IMG/VR virus record: IMGVR_UViG_3300022413_000007
Location: 1-33,818 of that record
Source of the DNA: a virus
Length of the DNA: 33,818 bases
Direction: 5' to 3' (one strand)
The position numbers and the translations under genes were made by a program. Positions 3,034 through 21,476 of the stretch are shown here, one piece after another (positions within the stretch are counted from its first letter, which is position 1; every line of letters begins with the position of its first letter). The notes beneath the pieces were generated by a model. The model was given only the letters and a program-made list of their open reading frames with translations. It made no database searches and was not told the origin of the DNA.

Positions 3034-3173
3034 TTTCGACTAAAAGATTTGAAGTCAGAAATAGGAACGCTTATTATGGAGCATAAAAGGGAAAGTAATT
3101 CTGAACCTGTATCTGAACCTATCCTAATCTGTATGCTTTCCTCTTAACTTGACACTGATAAAGAGAAAGATTA

Positions 3174-3252
3174 CGACAGGTATGGTGATGAGTAATAAAG
3201 GTTCAATGGGCATGACTGACATACACTACAGTAGTATATAAGTATCCTGTCG
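3174..3252. other. Long-range inverted repeat, 79 nt
   Basis: CGACAGG at one end pairs with CCTGTCG at the other. Nested within, GTATG (3180-3184) can pair with CATAC (3220-3224). A TATA box (GTATATAAG, about 3234-3242) lies inside the right half. It could be a DNA element or a small structured RNA. Confidence 0.4.
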
Positions 3253-3278
3253 AAGACCTTTGTTTCCTGACCAGGCAC

Positions 3279-3295
3279 AGGTTATCCAATAACCT
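3279..3295. other. Hairpin, 7-bp stem and 3-nt loop
   Basis: AGGTTAT-CCA-ATAACCT is a perfect hairpin about 40 nt downstream of the internal TATA box. No function assigned. Confidence 0.4.
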
Positions 3296-3356
3296 ATGTT
3301 TCCACTCCAGTCATAACAGTTTGGGATTCATTTTTATTTCTTACAGATTATCATAT

Positions 3357-3380
3357 CAAGTAAAGAGATTACTTTACTTG
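3357..3380. other. Hairpin, 9-bp stem and 6-nt loop
   Basis: CAAGTAAAG-AGATTA-CTTTACTTG is a perfect 9-bp stem. The right arm continues into ACTTGATAT, which could pair instead with ATATCAAGT overlapping the left arm, so two alternative foldings exist. It could end a transcript from the promoter cluster. Confidence 0.45.
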
Positions 3381-3437
3381 ACTTGATATTTTGCAGCAGT
3401 AAAAATAAATTTTACAGTTCACGCCTAGAAATCGTGT

Positions 3438-3451
3438 TTTGTAGGTACAAA
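3438..3451. promoter_or_regulatory. Operator-like inverted repeat, distal copy
   Basis: TTTGTAGGTACAAA is a perfect 6-bp inverted repeat with a 2-bp spacer. A near copy lies exactly 70 bp downstream, over the RHH gene promoter. Confidence 0.5.
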
Positions 3452-3474
3452 CCATACCGCATGGTGGTTCCAAT

Positions 3475-3487
3475 ATAACAGTGTTAT
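3475..3487. promoter_or_regulatory. 13-bp palindrome between the two operators
   Basis: ATAACA-G-TGTTAT is a perfect 6-bp inverted repeat about a single base, upstream of the TATA box for the RHH gene. Confidence 0.35.
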
Positions 3488-3502
3488 GAATCAATACAAA
3501 CC

Positions 3503-3510
3503 CTTATATT
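3503..3510 (+). promoter_or_regulatory. TATA box for the RHH regulator
   Basis: CTTATATT is centred about 25 nt upstream of ATG 3532. It favours that ATG over an upstream TTG at 3511, which would fall before the predicted transcription start. Confidence 0.6.
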
Positions 3511-3521
3511 GTGGGTACAAT
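3508..3521. promoter_or_regulatory. Operator-like inverted repeat, proximal copy
   Basis: ATTGTGGGTACAAT keeps the ends and the GGTAC core of the distal copy with one mismatch in the dyad. It sits between the TATA box and the start codon, where a bound repressor would block initiation. Confidence 0.5.
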
Positions 3522-3531
3522 AATATACATC

Positions 3532-3747
3532 ATGGTTCTAGATAAAAATGATGAAGTGAAATCAACACTAGATAAAACTATTAAATTAAGAATAACAGAA
3601 GATGAGATAAACATGATTGATGACTTGGTTGAATTCCAGAATCTACATACATCAATCCGAGATTGTGAATTCTTTAATAGGTCTAGTCTACTAAGGCATC
3701 TTCTAAACTTGTACTATTTCGATACAATGAGGTATGATTCAGAATGA
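3532..3747 (+). CDS. Ribbon-helix-helix DNA-binding regulator, 71 aa
   Basis: After a short acidic N-terminus, KTIKLRITEDEINMIDDLVE forms the beta-strand and first helix of an RHH (CopG/MetJ-type) fold, and FNRSSLLRHLLNLYY forms the second helix with the usual S/N-R-S turn. Such proteins bind inverted repeats as dimers. Two matching inverted repeats flank its own promoter, so autorepression is likely. The ATG at 3532 is chosen from TATA spacing. It is the first gene of the replication operon. Confidence 0.75.
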   Translation: MVLDKNDEVKSTLDKTIKLRITEDEINMIDDLVEFQNLHTSIRDCEFFNRSSLLRHLLNLYYFDTMRYDSE

Positions 3748-15080: not shown

Positions 15081-17459
15081 CTAAAATTCTTGAAGAGTTA
15101 ATTCTAATTCTTCTACACCCATATTACTTGTATCATCTGCAGAGAATGATCCATTGACAGCAATGATATCAACTAATATATCTAAACCAGACATTTCATC
15201 TTGTATTCTACAATATTTTCCTACTGGAACTACACATGAAATAGGTGAAGATACAACATCTTTGTATATTCTTCGTGGTTTACCCAGGGTCTTTGAAGCC
15301 TGTATTAACGCTTCTTGGATAGTTTCAACCTGAACATCTTGCCTCATTGAAAAGCCTACCTCTCTAATTCCGAAATCAATTCTTGCAGTTAAATCTTCTA
15401 CTGTTACAGTTACAGATCTATTTGTATATACTCTGTATTGGAATGTTACACCAGATGCACCGCTAACTTGAGTCCATCCTACTCCTTCAGGATCGGTACT
15501 AGTCCAATAATTAGTATCTACTGTGGTATCATTTTCTACTCCAAATGTATTACTTGCAGTGCCATAGAGTTTAACAACTATAAATAATTCCTCTCTTGGT
15601 GAAATAGATATACCACCTCTAATATTGAATGATATCTCAGTCCAATTTGTACCAGATGTAGGCATTGCTTGAAGTTTCTCTTCACCTATTATACCTACAC
15701 CTCGTATATCCTCTATATTAGGTCCACCAGATCCATCATCTCCAACTATAATAAATTCAGCCTTACCTGTTGCAGGCGTACCAGTTCTGTTTAAAGATAA
15801 TGAAATTTTCTCAATATTATCATGTGTTGGTTCTATCTTCCATGCCAAGTATCCTGTATCAAGATTAAATACAGAATTTGCTGTATTGTCTTCTTCTAGA
15901 TTTAATTTGATTTCATTTCCACCCCATGCATGTAATATACTAAATGCTCCTTCAGCCGAATTATTAGACCATTCAAAAACACTATCTTGTAAATATCCTA
16001 TTTTTGCAGGATTCCAACCTTGCGCATCCAATCCATCTAAATCATTTGTTATTAAAATACCACTATTTTTAGTACCAACCTGTCTAAGATATACATCTCT
16101 ATTTGCATCTATACCCCAATATGCGTTAGCCCATGCTGACAGTGTACTCATAGCACTAGCCCATGTTTGACCAGTCTGTTGAAAATCGGGTAATTTAATA
16201 TCTATATCTTCAATACCACTTACTGTTATTTCCGGTTCTCCTGGTATACCTTCACTTATATAATGATCTGTGTCTACAAATATATCCTTTGCTACTTCAG
16301 ATACTTTAGAATCATCATCTGTTGCATCTACAGTTATACCATCTGCTTCTTTATCTTGAAATCTTTTAATCTCAGTATATCTATTTCTAGTTTTTACAGC
16401 CCATCCTACAACAGTTACAGTTAATTGTTTCATTGCTGTTATAGGTCTTGCAACAGTTACATCCAAGACTTTTCCATAGAACCACCTATTTAAGTTTGAT
16501 GAAGTTTTACCAAGGAATAATTCTACTTCCCATTGTTGAAGGATTAATGGGTTTGCCTTGGAAGTTCCATCAGTCATTATATTGTTTGCATCATCTAAAA
16601 CAAATGTTAGGAATCCAAAGTCATCGTTTGTACCTATATGAAATCCACCATCAGTTAATCTGAAATCTTGTACCGCAGAAGCCGCACTTGATACAGTTCC
16701 GAATGATGCAATTGAAGCAAATAATTCAGCAACTTGTGAAGAGGATAATTCAAAGTCATAAAAATTAACCAATTGTAAATCTCCTGTATATGGTAATCCT
16801 GCATCACTTTCAGCACCAAACACCATTGATTCATTATTAGTAGGATCGCCAGTTAGAGTATCTATTGTAGCAGCCTGTGTATCGTCTGCACCGTCTATAT
16901 ATGTTGTTAACTCTGATGATGAACCAGTTCCAGCAGCCTTTGTGATTACACAATGATGCCATAATCCATCGTTATGACTAGATCCAGATACAGGTTGTCT
17001 CAATTCATTTGTAGAACCTGTATTTATCAGGCCCATTACAAGTATATCACTATTATTGTTGTATATGTATAGACCTGCTGTTGAATTAACAGATGTTCCC
17101 TTACAAATTAATAATTGAGATGAACTAGATGAATATTTAAACCAGAATGAAACAGACCATGCTGAGGTTCTATCTATAAAATCAAAATTAGATTCATTAT
17201 CTAGTGTGATATAACTAGAACCGTTAAATGACGCGGCTTTGTTTATATTACCTATTCCATATGTTTCAGTACCAGTCCATGTACCATCAGATCTTTGATA
17301 TAAATCAATTGGTTTTTCATCTAGATCATATGATGATAAAGGGTGTAATGATTTTACACTCTCTGATTCATATGTGAATTGTTCTACACCATCCTTATCA
17401 TTAATTATTATTTTAGGATGTAAACCATTTGGGTTATAATTAGGTGTTAATGCACTCAT
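15081..17459 (-). CDS. Tail hub/baseplate protein with inserted LamG domain, 792 aa
   Basis: Residues about 60-245 form a LamG/ConA-like jelly roll (AASFNGSSYITLDN, WSVSFWFKY, LWHHCVITKA). The segment from about 260 to 480 (FYGKVLDVTVARP, LTVTVVGWAVKTRNRYTEIK, AMSTLSAWANAYWGID) resembles tail-tip hub proteins that follow the tape measure. A further beta-rich part and a C-terminal OB-like segment follow. The start overlaps the tape-measure stop, the usual place for distal tail/hub genes. The LamG probably adds glycan binding near the tail tip. Confidence 0.7.
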   Translation of the reverse strand: MSALTPNYNPNGLHPKIIINDKDGVEQFTYESESVKSLHPLSSYDLDEKPIDLYQRSDGTWTGTETYGIGNINKAASFNGSSYITLDNESNFDFIDRTSAWSVSFWFKYSSSSSQLLICKGTSVNSTAGLYIYNNNSDILVMGLINTGSTNELRQPVSGSSHNDGLWHHCVITKAAGTGSSSELTTYIDGADDTQAATIDTLTGDPTNNESMVFGAESDAGLPYTGDLQLVNFYDFELSSSQVAELFASIASFGTVSSAASAVQDFRLTDGGFHIGTNDDFGFLTFVLDDANNIMTDGTSKANPLILQQWEVELFLGKTSSNLNRWFYGKVLDVTVARPITAMKQLTVTVVGWAVKTRNRYTEIKRFQDKEADGITVDATDDDSKVSEVAKDIFVDTDHYISEGIPGEPEITVSGIEDIDIKLPDFQQTGQTWASAMSTLSAWANAYWGIDANRDVYLRQVGTKNSGILITNDLDGLDAQGWNPAKIGYLQDSVFEWSNNSAEGAFSILHAWGGNEIKLNLEEDNTANSVFNLDTGYLAWKIEPTHDNIEKISLSLNRTGTPATGKAEFIIVGDDGSGGPNIEDIRGVGIIGEEKLQAMPTSGTNWTEISFNIRGGISISPREELFIVVKLYGTASNTFGVENDTTVDTNYWTSTDPEGVGWTQVSGASGVTFQYRVYTNRSVTVTVEDLTARIDFGIREVGFSMRQDVQVETIQEALIQASKTLGKPRRIYKDVVSSPISCVVPVGKYCRIQDEMSGLDILVDIIAVNGSFSADDTSNMGVEELELTLQEF

Positions 17460-19198
17460 GTTGTTGTCCCCGTTACCATTTCTCCGGCTTTCTTTTGGAA
17501 ATTAATTACGCCTCGAATCTCTTTAAATCCTCCAGGGGTACTTCGTAGTTTAATGAATTTTATAGCAGAGATTCCTTTTGCTTCACCTATTCCAACCTCT
17601 GATTTTAATGCTTTAAATGCCTCAACTCTTCGCCTTCTTGATTTCCTTCTATTCTCTTCAAACTGTGCCAACATTGCCAATTCTCTTTCTCTTGTACCTC
17701 TTGCATCATTGTTACCGAACCTAATAAACCCTCCGCCTTCTACAGATCCAATACCTGTCAATTCTAACAATGCTTGATTTTCTGGAAGTTGATCTATTCT
17801 TCTTGCTTTTGCTTGTAGTATACTACTAAATTTATCTTTACGTCCTAATGGGTTTCTATCTCGTCCTCTTCTTCTTGAACCTCTTCCTGCACCTACAGAA
17901 CTGCTAAGACTACCTGATGTTGTTGCACCTTTAAATGAACTGAACCTTGCAGAACTTTTACCTCTTGCTAATGATCTTGCTATAACTGCTGCGGATGCAC
18001 CTTTATTAAACATAGATACAGCCAGACTACCTAATCCTCCTATTGGTCCGCCTTTATCTCTAGCAGGTTTGAATCCTCCAGGGTTTAATGTACCACTAAC
18101 ATTTCTAGTAGATACAGAACCTGTTAATCCAGCGTCTTTTAAAGCCTGATGTAATGATGCAGATGCTAAGGTTCTTGCAGTTGCTCTGTCTATTTCATCG
18201 GCTTCCCGATTAATTATTGCTGAAAGGGGCTGTCCAGGCCCCGCTCTAAAACCCCCCGACCGCATCAATTGTTCTTGAGCCAGGGTTAAATTTTTAATCT
18301 TACCAGTTGTATTGTTAGCCGAGTCTCCTACATCATCAATCTTATCTGCCATTGAACCATATACAGGTAAACCTCTCTCTACAGTATCTCCGAATTCCCT
18401 TGTTTGTCTGTTTAATTCTTCCATTGAAGATTCACCTTCAGTCAATCCTTCAAATGCCTTTTGCATATTACTGAATATACCAAGATCTTCTATACCAGTT
18501 AAGTTTTCAACAATACTCTTTAATCCTAATTCCCATGCTAAAATACCGGCTGTAATAATAAGAAATACAGGATGTTTTGCTACAGTCCATAATGCACCTG
18601 ATAATAATTTAACGCCTGCAACAGTGGCTTTTAATACTCCACCTGCTGTAACACCCATTGCAACGAATGCTATACTAATTTGTGCTACTGCACCTACAGC
18701 ATTAATTCCGAATGAAACATATTCTCCAGATAGTTTCTTAGTTTCAGCTTCTACATTCTTAGATTCTAACTGAACATTTTTATATGCTAATTCTATATCT
18801 TCTAATGCTCTATGAAAATCTCTATCTGCAATAGTACCTTCTTCAACTGCTTTATTTAAATCTTCTTGAGCACGTCTTAATGCTATCTCTTGTCCTTCTA
18901 ATCCTACTATAGTTTTATCTAACGCTACTACTTTACTTTCAAAATCTAATACAGCTTGGCCTAATCCAGCAATTTGTGATGTAAATCCTTGTACTGCTAT
19001 TGCAGCAACTCCGAAACCTATTTTTGCTTTATCTGCTCCAGCCTTTGCTTTCTCCATTCCAGAAGATGCTTTATCCCCTGCTGTTTTTGCCTTATCACCA
19101 AACTCTTTTGCTTTCTGTCCCGCTTGATTTAATTTTGCATTAACATCAGTAGTATCTGCCTTTACTGCTATCTTAACATCTTTATCGATATCAGCCAT
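17456..19198 (-). CDS. Tape measure protein, 580 aa
   Basis: The N-terminus (MADIDKDVKIAVKADT) and an Ala/Lys/Gly-rich coiled region (about 25-75) are typical of tape measures. A long helix with Q/E/L heptads follows, then hydrophobic segments (about 165-225, AVGAVAQISIAFVAMGV and HPVFLIITAGILAWELG) and a Gly/Arg-rich flexible C-terminal third. ATG 19198 is chosen because the late promoter octamer is 27 nt upstream; upstream in-frame starts would precede the promoter. At about 1.5 angstrom per residue the tail would be near 85-90 nm. Overlaps the hub gene. Confidence 0.85.
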   Translation of the reverse strand: MADIDKDVKIAVKADTTDVNAKLNQAGQKAKEFGDKAKTAGDKASSGMEKAKAGADKAKIGFGVAAIAVQGFTSQIAGLGQAVLDFESKVVALDKTIVGLEGQEIALRRAQEDLNKAVEEGTIADRDFHRALEDIELAYKNVQLESKNVEAETKKLSGEYVSFGINAVGAVAQISIAFVAMGVTAGGVLKATVAGVKLLSGALWTVAKHPVFLIITAGILAWELGLKSIVENLTGIEDLGIFSNMQKAFEGLTEGESSMEELNRQTREFGDTVERGLPVYGSMADKIDDVGDSANNTTGKIKNLTLAQEQLMRSGGFRAGPGQPLSAIINREADEIDRATARTLASASLHQALKDAGLTGSVSTRNVSGTLNPGGFKPARDKGGPIGGLGSLAVSMFNKGASAAVIARSLARGKSSARFSSFKGATTSGSLSSSVGAGRGSRRRGRDRNPLGRKDKFSSILQAKARRIDQLPENQALLELTGIGSVEGGGFIRFGNNDARGTRERELAMLAQFEENRRKSRRRRVEAFKALKSEVGIGEAKGISAIKFIKLRSTPGGFKEIRGVINFQKKAGEMVTGTTT

Positions 19199-19264: not shown

Positions 19265-19642
19265 ATGAGTGAAGAAGCAAAACGACAATTAAGAGATTTA
19301 TTAGCAAATATTGATTTTGAAAAAGGAGTATATAAGATTAAAGGAACAGAATTACCAATAAGAGATTTATCAATAACAGAAATGGAACAGTTACAAGATA
19401 AAGAGGCTGAGATGAAAGATATGGAAGGACATTTAGATAATTTTACAGCACAAGAGGTATTAAAGAAAGGTAGAGATTGGCAAAATTTCATACTAAAAAT
19501 TGGCTTTGGTGATAAAAAACAAATTGATAAGATCAAGAAATCATTATCAGCATTAGAATACCAGAAACTTGTAGAGGAGGTATTCGTTTTTTTAGGAAGA
19601 TTTACGGGTCCAAAAGGGGCCAAAGAATATATGACTACCTAG
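19265..19642 (+). CDS. Tail assembly chaperone, short form (gpG-like), 125 aa
   Basis: A helical, charged protein with the length and position of lambda gpG-type chaperones, next to the tape measure and tail tube genes. Near the 3' end the frame reads GTT TTT TTA (19586-19594), so T TTT TTA forms a classical -1 slippery heptamer. The short form continues 15 residues past it and stops at 19642. Unusually the gene is on the strand opposite to the tape measure. Confidence 0.75.
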   Translation: MSEEAKRQLRDLLANIDFEKGVYKIKGTELPIRDLSITEMEQLQDKEAEMKDMEGHLDNFTAQEVLKKGRDWQNFILKIGFGDKKQIDKIKKSLSALEYQKLVEEVFVFLGRFTGPKGAKEYMTT

Positions 19643-19818
19643 ATGAAAAAGGTAGTTTAGAAGGCGAAGATTTACATATGTTTTTTGTTATACAGGCTAA
19701 TGCGGCTGGGTTTGGTTCATATAAAGAATTAGATCAATATAGTAATGTAAGACTGTTTACTATGCTTAAATACAAAGAAACATGGAAAGAATGGAGTGAT
19801 TTAAATGGCAAAGATTAG
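19265..19818 (+). CDS. Tail assembly chaperone, -1 frameshift form (gpGT-like), 184 aa
   Basis: A slip at UUUUUUA (19588-19594) into the -1 frame gives 74 further codons without a stop (AGG AAG ATT TAC... to TAG at 19816-19818). The extension fills an otherwise empty gap and overlaps the next ATG (19805). G/GT frameshifting is a conserved feature of siphovirus tail chaperones: the T domain binds the tape measure or tube subunits. The T extension contains YDYLDEKG and MFFVIQANAAGFGSY. A homopolymer sequencing error is the main alternative. Confidence 0.7.
19588..19594 (+). promoter_or_regulatory. -1 frameshift slippery site UUUUUUA
   Basis: In frame with codons 109-110 of the chaperone (TTT TTA preceded by T). 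The downstream CCAAAAGGGGCC may add structure. The -1 frame is open for 74 codons. Confidence 0.7.
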
Positions 19819-20263
19819 ATTTAATACAGGACCTATAGATGCATTAAATGATAAATTAAAACTAACTAGTGCAGAAATAAAGAAATTAAACAAATTATTG
19901 AATTCTAAACTACCAAATGAATTATTAAAGATTTTAAGAAGACATACACCGAAAGACACAGGTGAGACATCAAAGGCTTGGGAGATACAGAAAAAAGGTG
20001 GTAATGGCTTCACTATTGTTAATGAGCGTGGGGGTATAATACAGTTTCTAATAGATGGTGTAAGACCACATGATATATTCCCAAAAGATAAATCTGTATT
20101 AATGATGAATATAGGTTCATCTAAAATATTTGCAAAATTTGTAGAGCATCCTGGCTATCCCAAACAAATGAATGTTGATAAAATATTTGATGAGATAAAT
20201 AAAGCCACAGATAAAGTATTAGACCGAATAATAACAGATATATTAAAAAGAAAATTAAAATAG
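19805..20263 (+). CDS. HK97 gp10-like tail completion protein, 152 aa
   Basis: RRHTPKDTGETSKAW (about 46-60) is the characteristic 'P.dTG.l..s' segment of the HK97 gp10/tail-completion family. It is followed by a beta-rich part with VEHPGYPKQ near 118, also typical of that family. It should act at the head-tail or tail-terminator interface. On the plus strand with the chaperones; the start overlaps the frameshift extension. Confidence 0.7.
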   Translation: MAKIRFNTGPIDALNDKLKLTSAEIKKLNKLLNSKLPNELLKILRRHTPKDTGETSKAWEIQKKGGNGFTIVNERGGIIQFLIDGVRPHDIFPKDKSVLMMNIGSSKIFAKFVEHPGYPKQMNVDKIFDEINKATDKVLDRIITDILKRKLK

Positions 20264-20268
20264 TAAGA

Positions 20269-20277
20269 TTTATATTA
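20269..20277 (+). promoter_or_regulatory. TATA box for the gene at 20299
   Basis: TTTATATTA is centred 26 nt upstream of ATG 20299, the leaderless spacing. Confidence 0.6.
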
Positions 20278-20298
20278 TGTATTAACTATACATATAAT

Positions 20299-20565
20299 AT
20301 GTTTGGAAATAAACAAAAAACAGAACTTCAGACACAAGATGATTTTATAGAGAGTCTTGTGGATGACTACAAAAGATCTTGGAATAAAGGCGGAATCATA
20401 GAATATAAAAACGAAAGAATGGCTATAGTTAATAAAACGGCTGGTAAAACAGTACAATATATTATAGCAATGGAAATACTCATGTCTGAAGGATATAAAT
20501 TAGAAGGTGTTGTATCTGCAATGGGTAATGCAGGAACTAACCAAATTATATTCAGAAAAGATTAA
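20299..20565 (+). CDS. Hypothetical protein, 88 aa
   Basis: The basic/polar N-terminal half and the C-terminal half (AIVNKTAGKTVQYIIAMEILMSEGYKLEGVV) suggest a small alpha/beta fold. No family recognised. It has its own TATA promoter, and its stop shares TTAA with the convergent tail tube gene stop. Confidence 0.65.
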   Translation: MFGNKQKTELQTQDDFIESLVDDYKRSWNKGGIIEYKNERMAIVNKTAGKTVQYIIAMEILMSEGYKLEGVVSAMGNAGTNQIIFRKD

Positions 20566-21476
20566 GAGTCTGCTACTGTTACGTTTTGTGCTCTTGCAGT
20601 AATTGGTTCAATTAATAGATCTGTATCAGTTGAAGTATGTCTTTCAGTCCATCCGGTTATAACAGCATCGGTAAAGTTTATCTGTGCTGTACCATCGTTA
20701 ATCTCATATACTGCTGCTCTCTTTGTTTTATCTTCATAATCAGTTGCTAATGTACTTACACTTCTAATCACATCTACTGAGAACTCTATTCCTCTATGAG
20801 ATGGTTTACTGAAAACAATTTCATTTTCTCCGTTTACTTTTGTCATTCCTAGATCTCTTAATACAGTTAGTGAGAATCGTCTTTCACCGTAATTAACAGA
20901 ATTCCATAAGAATGGTGTGCTGCCTGCATCTTGATGTCGCCATACTGTAGTAGTTGGTAACGAAGAAATATTTGTTGGTGTGGTATCTGGATCAGTTGAA
21001 TTATCTATTGATATACTTTTACAGATCCAAGTTTGATCCATTTCCCATGCTCCTCTCTCAAGAGATAAAGTAGTTGACGAAGGTCTACAACCTGTCATTT
21101 TTGTAAAAACTTCTGTACCTGATTCATATTTAGAAAATTTAAATGATAATGATTCATCAATAGTACCTGCTCCACCGCAAGCATTGACTCCATATTTTAA
21201 TAATGTTGTATCATAAATTTGACTTTTAACAGTAAATGTATATAATTCTTCATTTTTAATTTGATCAAAGACATCCTCATCACCTAAAACATTTACAGGT
21301 GTGTCAACAATATCTCTTCCAAGTTCTAATTCTAAAACTCTACCAGCAGCAGTATAACTAGGAGAACTAGGAGTAACACCGAATAATGCTGGAGTTGTAA
21401 CAGAATCTCCTTCAGTAACCCATTGTAAAGGTAATACAAAATCTTTCTTGGTAGTAACGTTATGTGCGGATACCAT
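20562..21476 (-). CDS. Major tail tube protein, 304 aa
   Basis: Beta-rich sequence with many Thr/Ser and paired strands (YTFTVKSQIYDTTLLKYG, RRFSLTVLRDLG, EFSVDVIRS, AQINFTDAVITGW) as in long siphovirus tube proteins. It lies between connector genes and the tape measure and has its own late promoter, as expected for an abundant protein. Confidence 0.7.
   Translation of the reverse strand: MVSAHNVTTKKDFVLPLQWVTEGDSVTTPALFGVTPSSPSYTAAGRVLELELGRDIVDTPVNVLGDEDVFDQIKNEELYTFTVKSQIYDTTLLKYGVNACGGAGTIDESLSFKFSKYESGTEVFTKMTGCRPSSTTLSLERGAWEMDQTWICKSISIDNSTDPDTTPTNISSLPTTTVWRHQDAGSTPFLWNSVNYGERRFSLTVLRDLGMTKVNGENEIVFSKPSHRGIEFSVDVIRSVSTLATDYEDKTKRAAVYEINDGTAQINFTDAVITGWTERHTSTDTDLLIEPITARAQNVTVADS

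Follow-up and report, generated by a model that had tools for sequence, protein, structure and literature searches.

A probable −1 programmed frameshift on U_UUU_UUA in the tail assembly chaperone gene of a virus related to Nitrososphaeria proviruses

The virus record IMGVR_UViG_3300022413_000007 (33,818 bases; hereafter the window, analysed from its sequence over positions 1–33,818) appears to encode a tail assembly chaperone of the gpG/gpGT type, in which a −1 slip on U_UUU_UUA would extend the short G protein into a G-T fusion. The virus is related to proviruses of Nitrososphaeria. We put the probability of this reading at about 0.92. The open reading frame (ORF) that begins at 19265 contains GTT TTT TTA in frame at 19586–19594 and stops at 19642, giving a product of 125 amino acids (aa). 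A preliminary description of this DNA had placed these codons in the chaperone frame, which reading through the ORF bears out. It had also proposed that a −1 slip opens 74 codons ending over the start of the next gene. This stands, although the end coordinate given, 19818, was one base short of the actual 19819. The predicted G-T product is 110 + 74 = 184 aa, and the end of the extension overlaps a gp10-like gene, which starts at 19805, by 15 nucleotides (nt).

TTTTTTA occurs 20 times in the window against 20.6 expected by chance. It is neither rarer nor commoner than expected, and the heptamer by itself is therefore of little evidential value. What raises the site above chance is its conservation in phase, together with a −1 ORF that lacks an early start and shows a coding pattern. 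Scanning with an alignment of G proteins returned 29 loci on 28 related contigs (L052 and L064 are pieces of one contig, with L064 stopping short of the slip site, and L061–L063 are nearly identical to each other). T_TTT_TTA is in phase at the homologous position in 28 of 28 contigs (L036–L063), and it is followed by a −1 extension of 84–90 codons in the 26 contigs where the extension is complete; in L046 and L051 it runs into the contig end. Relatives thus carry both the slippery site and the extension, whose joint absence the preliminary description had named as a refutation, and together with the start-less −1 ORF they support the earlier proposal of a −1 programmed frameshift on UUUUUUA in a tail chaperone.

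Codon usage was compared among 24 representatives that are less than 95% identical. The slip-site Phe codon is TTT and the slip-site Leu codon is TTA in all 24, whereas other Phe and Leu columns of similar conservation contain a mixture of synonymous codons. The preceding codon encodes T, N, S, H, Y, I or V, yet its third base, which is the X of the heptamer, is always T. Multiplying codon frequencies over 27 sequences gives a value of about 1e-23, which overstates the case because the sequences share ancestry. Nucleotide clustering yields 12 groups at 80% identity and 5 at 70%, with the window forming one group. The turnover of amino acids at the first codon is a more robust argument than the product of frequencies.

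The extension has no evident start of its own. No ATG, GTG or TTG is found in the −1 frame within the first 28 codons past the heptamer in the window or in the 24 relatives, and the extension therefore needs a frameshift. Among the relatives, differences in the −1 frame are distributed over codon positions 1, 2 and 3 as 3538:1542:6408, a coding-type substitution pattern that points to selection on the encoded protein.

In the mechanism we propose, most ribosomes would read the 125-aa G. In a minority, tRNA-Phe on UUU and tRNA-Leu on UUA would move back by one base on U_UUU_UUA, and these ribosomes would go on through the further 74 codons to give the G-T fusion. Pausing over the slip site is probably caused by an internal GGAGG located 7 nt upstream. 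By analogy with lambda, the T part would bring in the tail tube protein at a low, fixed ratio, while G would coat the tape measure protein. In Escherichia coli, U_UUU_UUA is far less shifty than A_AAA_AAG (PMC5009743); a similarly low efficiency here would suit a low ratio of GT to G.

The upstream Shine-Dalgarno (SD)-like element is a better candidate stimulator than any downstream structure. In the window, its predicted duplex with the 3' end of 16S rRNA has an energy of −11.1 kcal/mol. The corresponding 16S 3' terminus, GGATCACCTCCT, occurs in the Nitrososphaeraceae genomes G170 and G001. Across the family, the mean duplex energy is −7.8 kcal/mol vs −3.9 kcal/mol from synonymous resampling, with 0 of 200 resamples as low, and the mean is also lower than in all 72 control windows of the same genes. 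Energies of −7 or below are found in 17 of the 24 members when 5.8 are expected. This excess over the synonymous expectation is no more than suggestive, because the sequences share ancestry. Since the element is weak or missing in some members (for example L049 and L056), it may enhance the slip without being essential for it. The preliminary description had also looked to downstream RNA structure, and here the prediction gave nothing conserved and an equivocal fold in the window: z is −3.1 for an 81-nt stretch and −1.0 for a 133-nt stretch, and so depends on the stretch chosen.

The same fused protein could arise in other ways. If the polymerase added a U in the T run, some mRNAs would carry the two frames already joined, and one extra base would yield an identical product. 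The two frames do meet at a T run, seven T long in the window, as such transcriptional slippage would require. However, the run is exactly six T in 27 of 29 sequences and seven in the other 2, below the lengths linked to slippage (more than 8 for T and more than 7 for A; PMC3711429). In soil and provirus members the site is C_CCT_TTG or C_CCT_TTC, which is no homopolymer. Tandem tRNA slippage is also consistent with the strict phase and with the A that follows the run. We therefore consider transcriptional slippage very unlikely.

Less likely still, in our estimation, is a pair of separate genes in which the downstream ORF has a start of its own and no frameshift takes place. The corresponding ORFs of the Nitrososphaera provirus Pro-Nvie1 are annotated in this way, and a GTG lies where they meet. 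By contrast, the −1 frame of the window and of 24 relatives offers no start for at least 28 codons past the heptamer, so that initiation inside it would cost a third or more of the extension. A sequencing or assembly error that dropped one T from a single continuous ORF is likewise extremely improbable: the window is a single metagenomic contig and its T7 run is error-prone, but the two-frame layout recurs in all 28 related contigs, nearly all of which have T6. Ribosomal −1 frameshifting on U_UUU_UUA remains by far the strongest reading.

Several observations weigh against that reading. A hidden Markov model (HMM) of the relatives' T extensions, used in a six-frame search, ranks the window extension first, but with a non-significant E=0.23 and a runner-up at 0.24; the resemblance between the window extension and those of its relatives is therefore weak. 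G itself falls below the curated cutoffs of every known chaperone family searched, sub-threshold matches being 15.0 bits (cutoff 27; E=0.024) to PF08890 Phage_TAC_5 and E=0.025 to the tail assembly chaperone family phrog_344. The predicted fold of G (predicted local distance difference test score, pLDDT, 86) had no confident relative in a PDB or BFVD fold search. Its match to the HK97 chaperone 2ob9 (Z=3.7, root-mean-square deviation 7.8 over 78 residues) is level with many unrelated entries. Downstream of the slip site, no consensus pairs were found in 22 relatives. Finally, among the marine relatives, TTT TTA is retained in the terminase gene of 18 of 18 contigs and the full T_TTT_TTA in 15. 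This heptamer is in phase and follows GGT (L010 2563–2571 and the homologous codons), but the −1 frame closes after 1–15 codons and there is no conserved −1 ORF. Conservation of the heptamer alone is therefore no proof of frameshifting.

In-phase A6G, A6C and T6C are depleted in the genes of these viruses, whereas in-phase T6A is not (21 seen, 13 expected), and 17 of the 21 are either the chaperone site or the one terminase site. Because the motif is common and is also kept in the terminase, the case rests on the combination of the site, the start-less extension and the coding pattern. The assignment of G to the chaperone family draws on a match to the HMM of the relatives' G proteins, in which the window G is the sole significant segment of the window (E=1.3e-9), and on gene position; its chaperone activity is putative.

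Table 1. Positions of the chaperone gene, its putative recoding elements and neighbouring tail genes in the window.
Feature	Position	Strand	Basis or remark
Gene G, short tail assembly chaperone (0 frame)	19265..19642	+	125 aa; ORF, match to the relatives' G HMM and gene position
Slippery heptamer T_TTT_TTA (U_UUU_UUA)	19588..19594	+	In phase with G; kept in related contigs
−1 frame extension (T domain)	19594..19819	+	74 codons plus stop (19817–19819)
Internal Shine-Dalgarno-like AGGAGGU, putative stimulator	19575..19581	+	Core GGAGG 19576–19580, 7 nt upstream of heptamer
Possible stem-loop ACTACCT / AGGTAGT	19634..19656	+	About 40 nt downstream; weak, probably no conserved stimulator
gp10-like / tail completion (Neck1) protein	19805..20263	+	phrog_5, E=3.3e-6; also the next gene in relatives and Pro-Nvie1
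Tail tape measure protein, divergent neighbour	17456..19198	−	phrog_34082, E=2.3e-4
Major tail (tube) protein, convergent neighbour	20562..21476	−	PF18906, E=4.8e-6, 26.8 bits, slightly below the 27-bit cutoff

The neighbouring genes are given in Table 1. In the relatives, the major tail protein gene is followed by the chaperone ORF, the −1 ORF, the gp10-like gene and the tape measure gene, all on one strand. In the window, the G/extension pair likewise lies between the tape measure gene and the gene for the major tail protein, yet on the opposite strand to both. An 88-aa ORF (20299–20565) shares the + strand with the chaperone and the gp10-like gene, while the head genes, like those for the major tail and tape measure proteins, are on the − strand. 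Because the relatives carry these genes on a single strand, we infer that a local inversion has occurred at 19265–20565; no long inverted repeats were found flanking this segment. The major tail protein of the window is 43–46% identical to those of the marine relatives and 30% identical to the annotated major tail protein of Pro-Nvie1. The window also encodes a baseplate or tail protein (15081–17459) with a concanavalin A-like Laminin_G_3 domain (E=3.2e-15), which possibly binds surface glycans.

The window capsid protein matches one named phage record, Pro-Nvie1, at 30% identity (E=9e-35), and the two terminases are 35% identical; this nearest named relative resides in an ammonia-oxidising archaeon. 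A two-sequence alignment of the capsid proteins of the window and Pro-Nvie1 recovered 31 IMG/VR contigs, most of them 40–50% identical in the best segment, and a Nitrososphaera metagenome-assembled genome; the capsid protein is present in 16 of 400 genomes of the class to which that genome belongs. Single-sequence scans of IMG/VR with the window G, T, capsid and terminase gave no matches, and a tblastn search of the window G against named phages gave none that was usable. The G alignment had no match in the 400 genomes of the class, and the marine group is therefore unlinked to any sequenced host. Judging from the relatives, an archaeal host is likely, and it is probably a member of Nitrososphaeria.

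Other members of the group show related arrangements. Genes 18 and 19 of Pro-Nvie1 (L002 12237–12826) are annotated as two genes, and the second is an overlapping −1 ORF at an in-phase C_CCT_TTG_TGA, which suggests a G/GT frameshift. L034 (C_CCT_TTG) and L031 (C_CCT_TTC) likewise have their heptamers in phase with a −1 ORF. The Pro-Nvie1-type chaperone is found in three genomes of the family of G133, the genome that contains Pro-Nvie1, and a scan with the Pro-Nvie1-type G alignment gave no contigs beyond those of L031 and L032. In the G170 provirus (L121 2329–2987), T_TTT_TTA stands immediately before the G stop TAA and the −1 ORF runs to 2987. Two distant proviruses of the same class, L122 (G151) and L124 (G203), have a T-like ORF in the +1 frame (reverse complement, about 2151–2649 and 3116–3551), and each of these ORFs contains an RPSxLL motif; the arrangement suggests +1 frameshifting of the kind described in the haloarchaeal virus HSTV-2.

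In Archaea, −1 frameshifting has been shown experimentally in only one cellular case, the fucosidase of Saccharolobus solfataricus, and a few cases have been inferred in haloarchaeal viruses (PMC8211752). A review of thaumarchaeal integrated elements does not mention frameshifting (PMC6563490), and our search of the open-licence literature found no report of it in thaumarchaeal viruses. The preliminary description had called an archaeal case notable. That claim holds in part: G/GT frameshifts are already reported for haloarchaeal viruses (PMC8211752, PMC5009743) and a UUUUUUC site for SPP1 (PMC6316719), and the archaeal host of the window is deduced from relatives. A broader proposal is that viruses of ammonia-oxidising archaea as a group use an SD element with an invariant U_UUU_UUA and no downstream structure, in what would be the first SD-stimulated programmed frameshift known in Archaea. 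We hold this tentatively, at slightly less than even odds. The family offers a conserved natural series, probably of Nitrososphaeria viruses, in which the heptamer is invariant and the candidate SD element is strong in some members and weak in others; slippage of archaeal ribosomes is therefore testable with natural variants. The T half of such chaperones would escape ordinary annotation.

The arrangement resembles that of several known systems. Lambda and most long-tailed double-stranded DNA phages likewise place a short ORF and a −1 ORF overlapping it between the genes for the major tail protein and the tape measure protein, and their G carries an X_XXY_YYZ heptamer close to its end (PMC5009743). 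Unlike these, the window has U_UUU_UUA, its G has no significant match to a known family, the cassette is inverted and the host is probably archaeal. The haloarchaeal viruses HVTV-1, HCTV-1, HCTV-2 and HCTV-5 are also archaeal tailed viruses with a −1 slip in the same gene, whereas HSTV-2 uses +1 (PMC8211752, PMC5009743); the present family differs in its U_UUU_UUA, which is invariant among relatives, and in its kinship with Nitrososphaeria proviruses. In SPP1, the tail chaperone gene gp17.5/gp17.5* likewise has a U-run heptamer, UUUUUUC (PMC6316719), but SPP1 is a bacterial phage, its heptamer ends in C rather than A and the site was identified by bioinformatics. Pro-Nvie1 has neighbouring genes related to those of the window and the same −1 arrangement, but it differs in its C_CCT_TTG_TGA junction and two-gene annotation, and its G and T have no detectable similarity to those of the window. 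HIV-1 gag-pol shares the U_UUU_UUA heptamer in an unrelated gene and host, and it has a downstream stem-loop stimulator, whereas none is conserved in the window family. In E. coli dnaX, the SD sequence lies 10 nt from the heptamer. The dnaX site is similar in having an SD-like sequence upstream of an X_XXY_YYZ heptamer (PMC3711429), but it is A_AAA_AAG with a downstream hairpin, whereas the window family has no conserved hairpin and an SD core 7 nt from the heptamer. The G/GT kind of frameshift is thus already known. The novelty lies in the lineage, in the invariance of UUUUUUA and, above all, in the internal SD element as a putative stimulator in Archaea.
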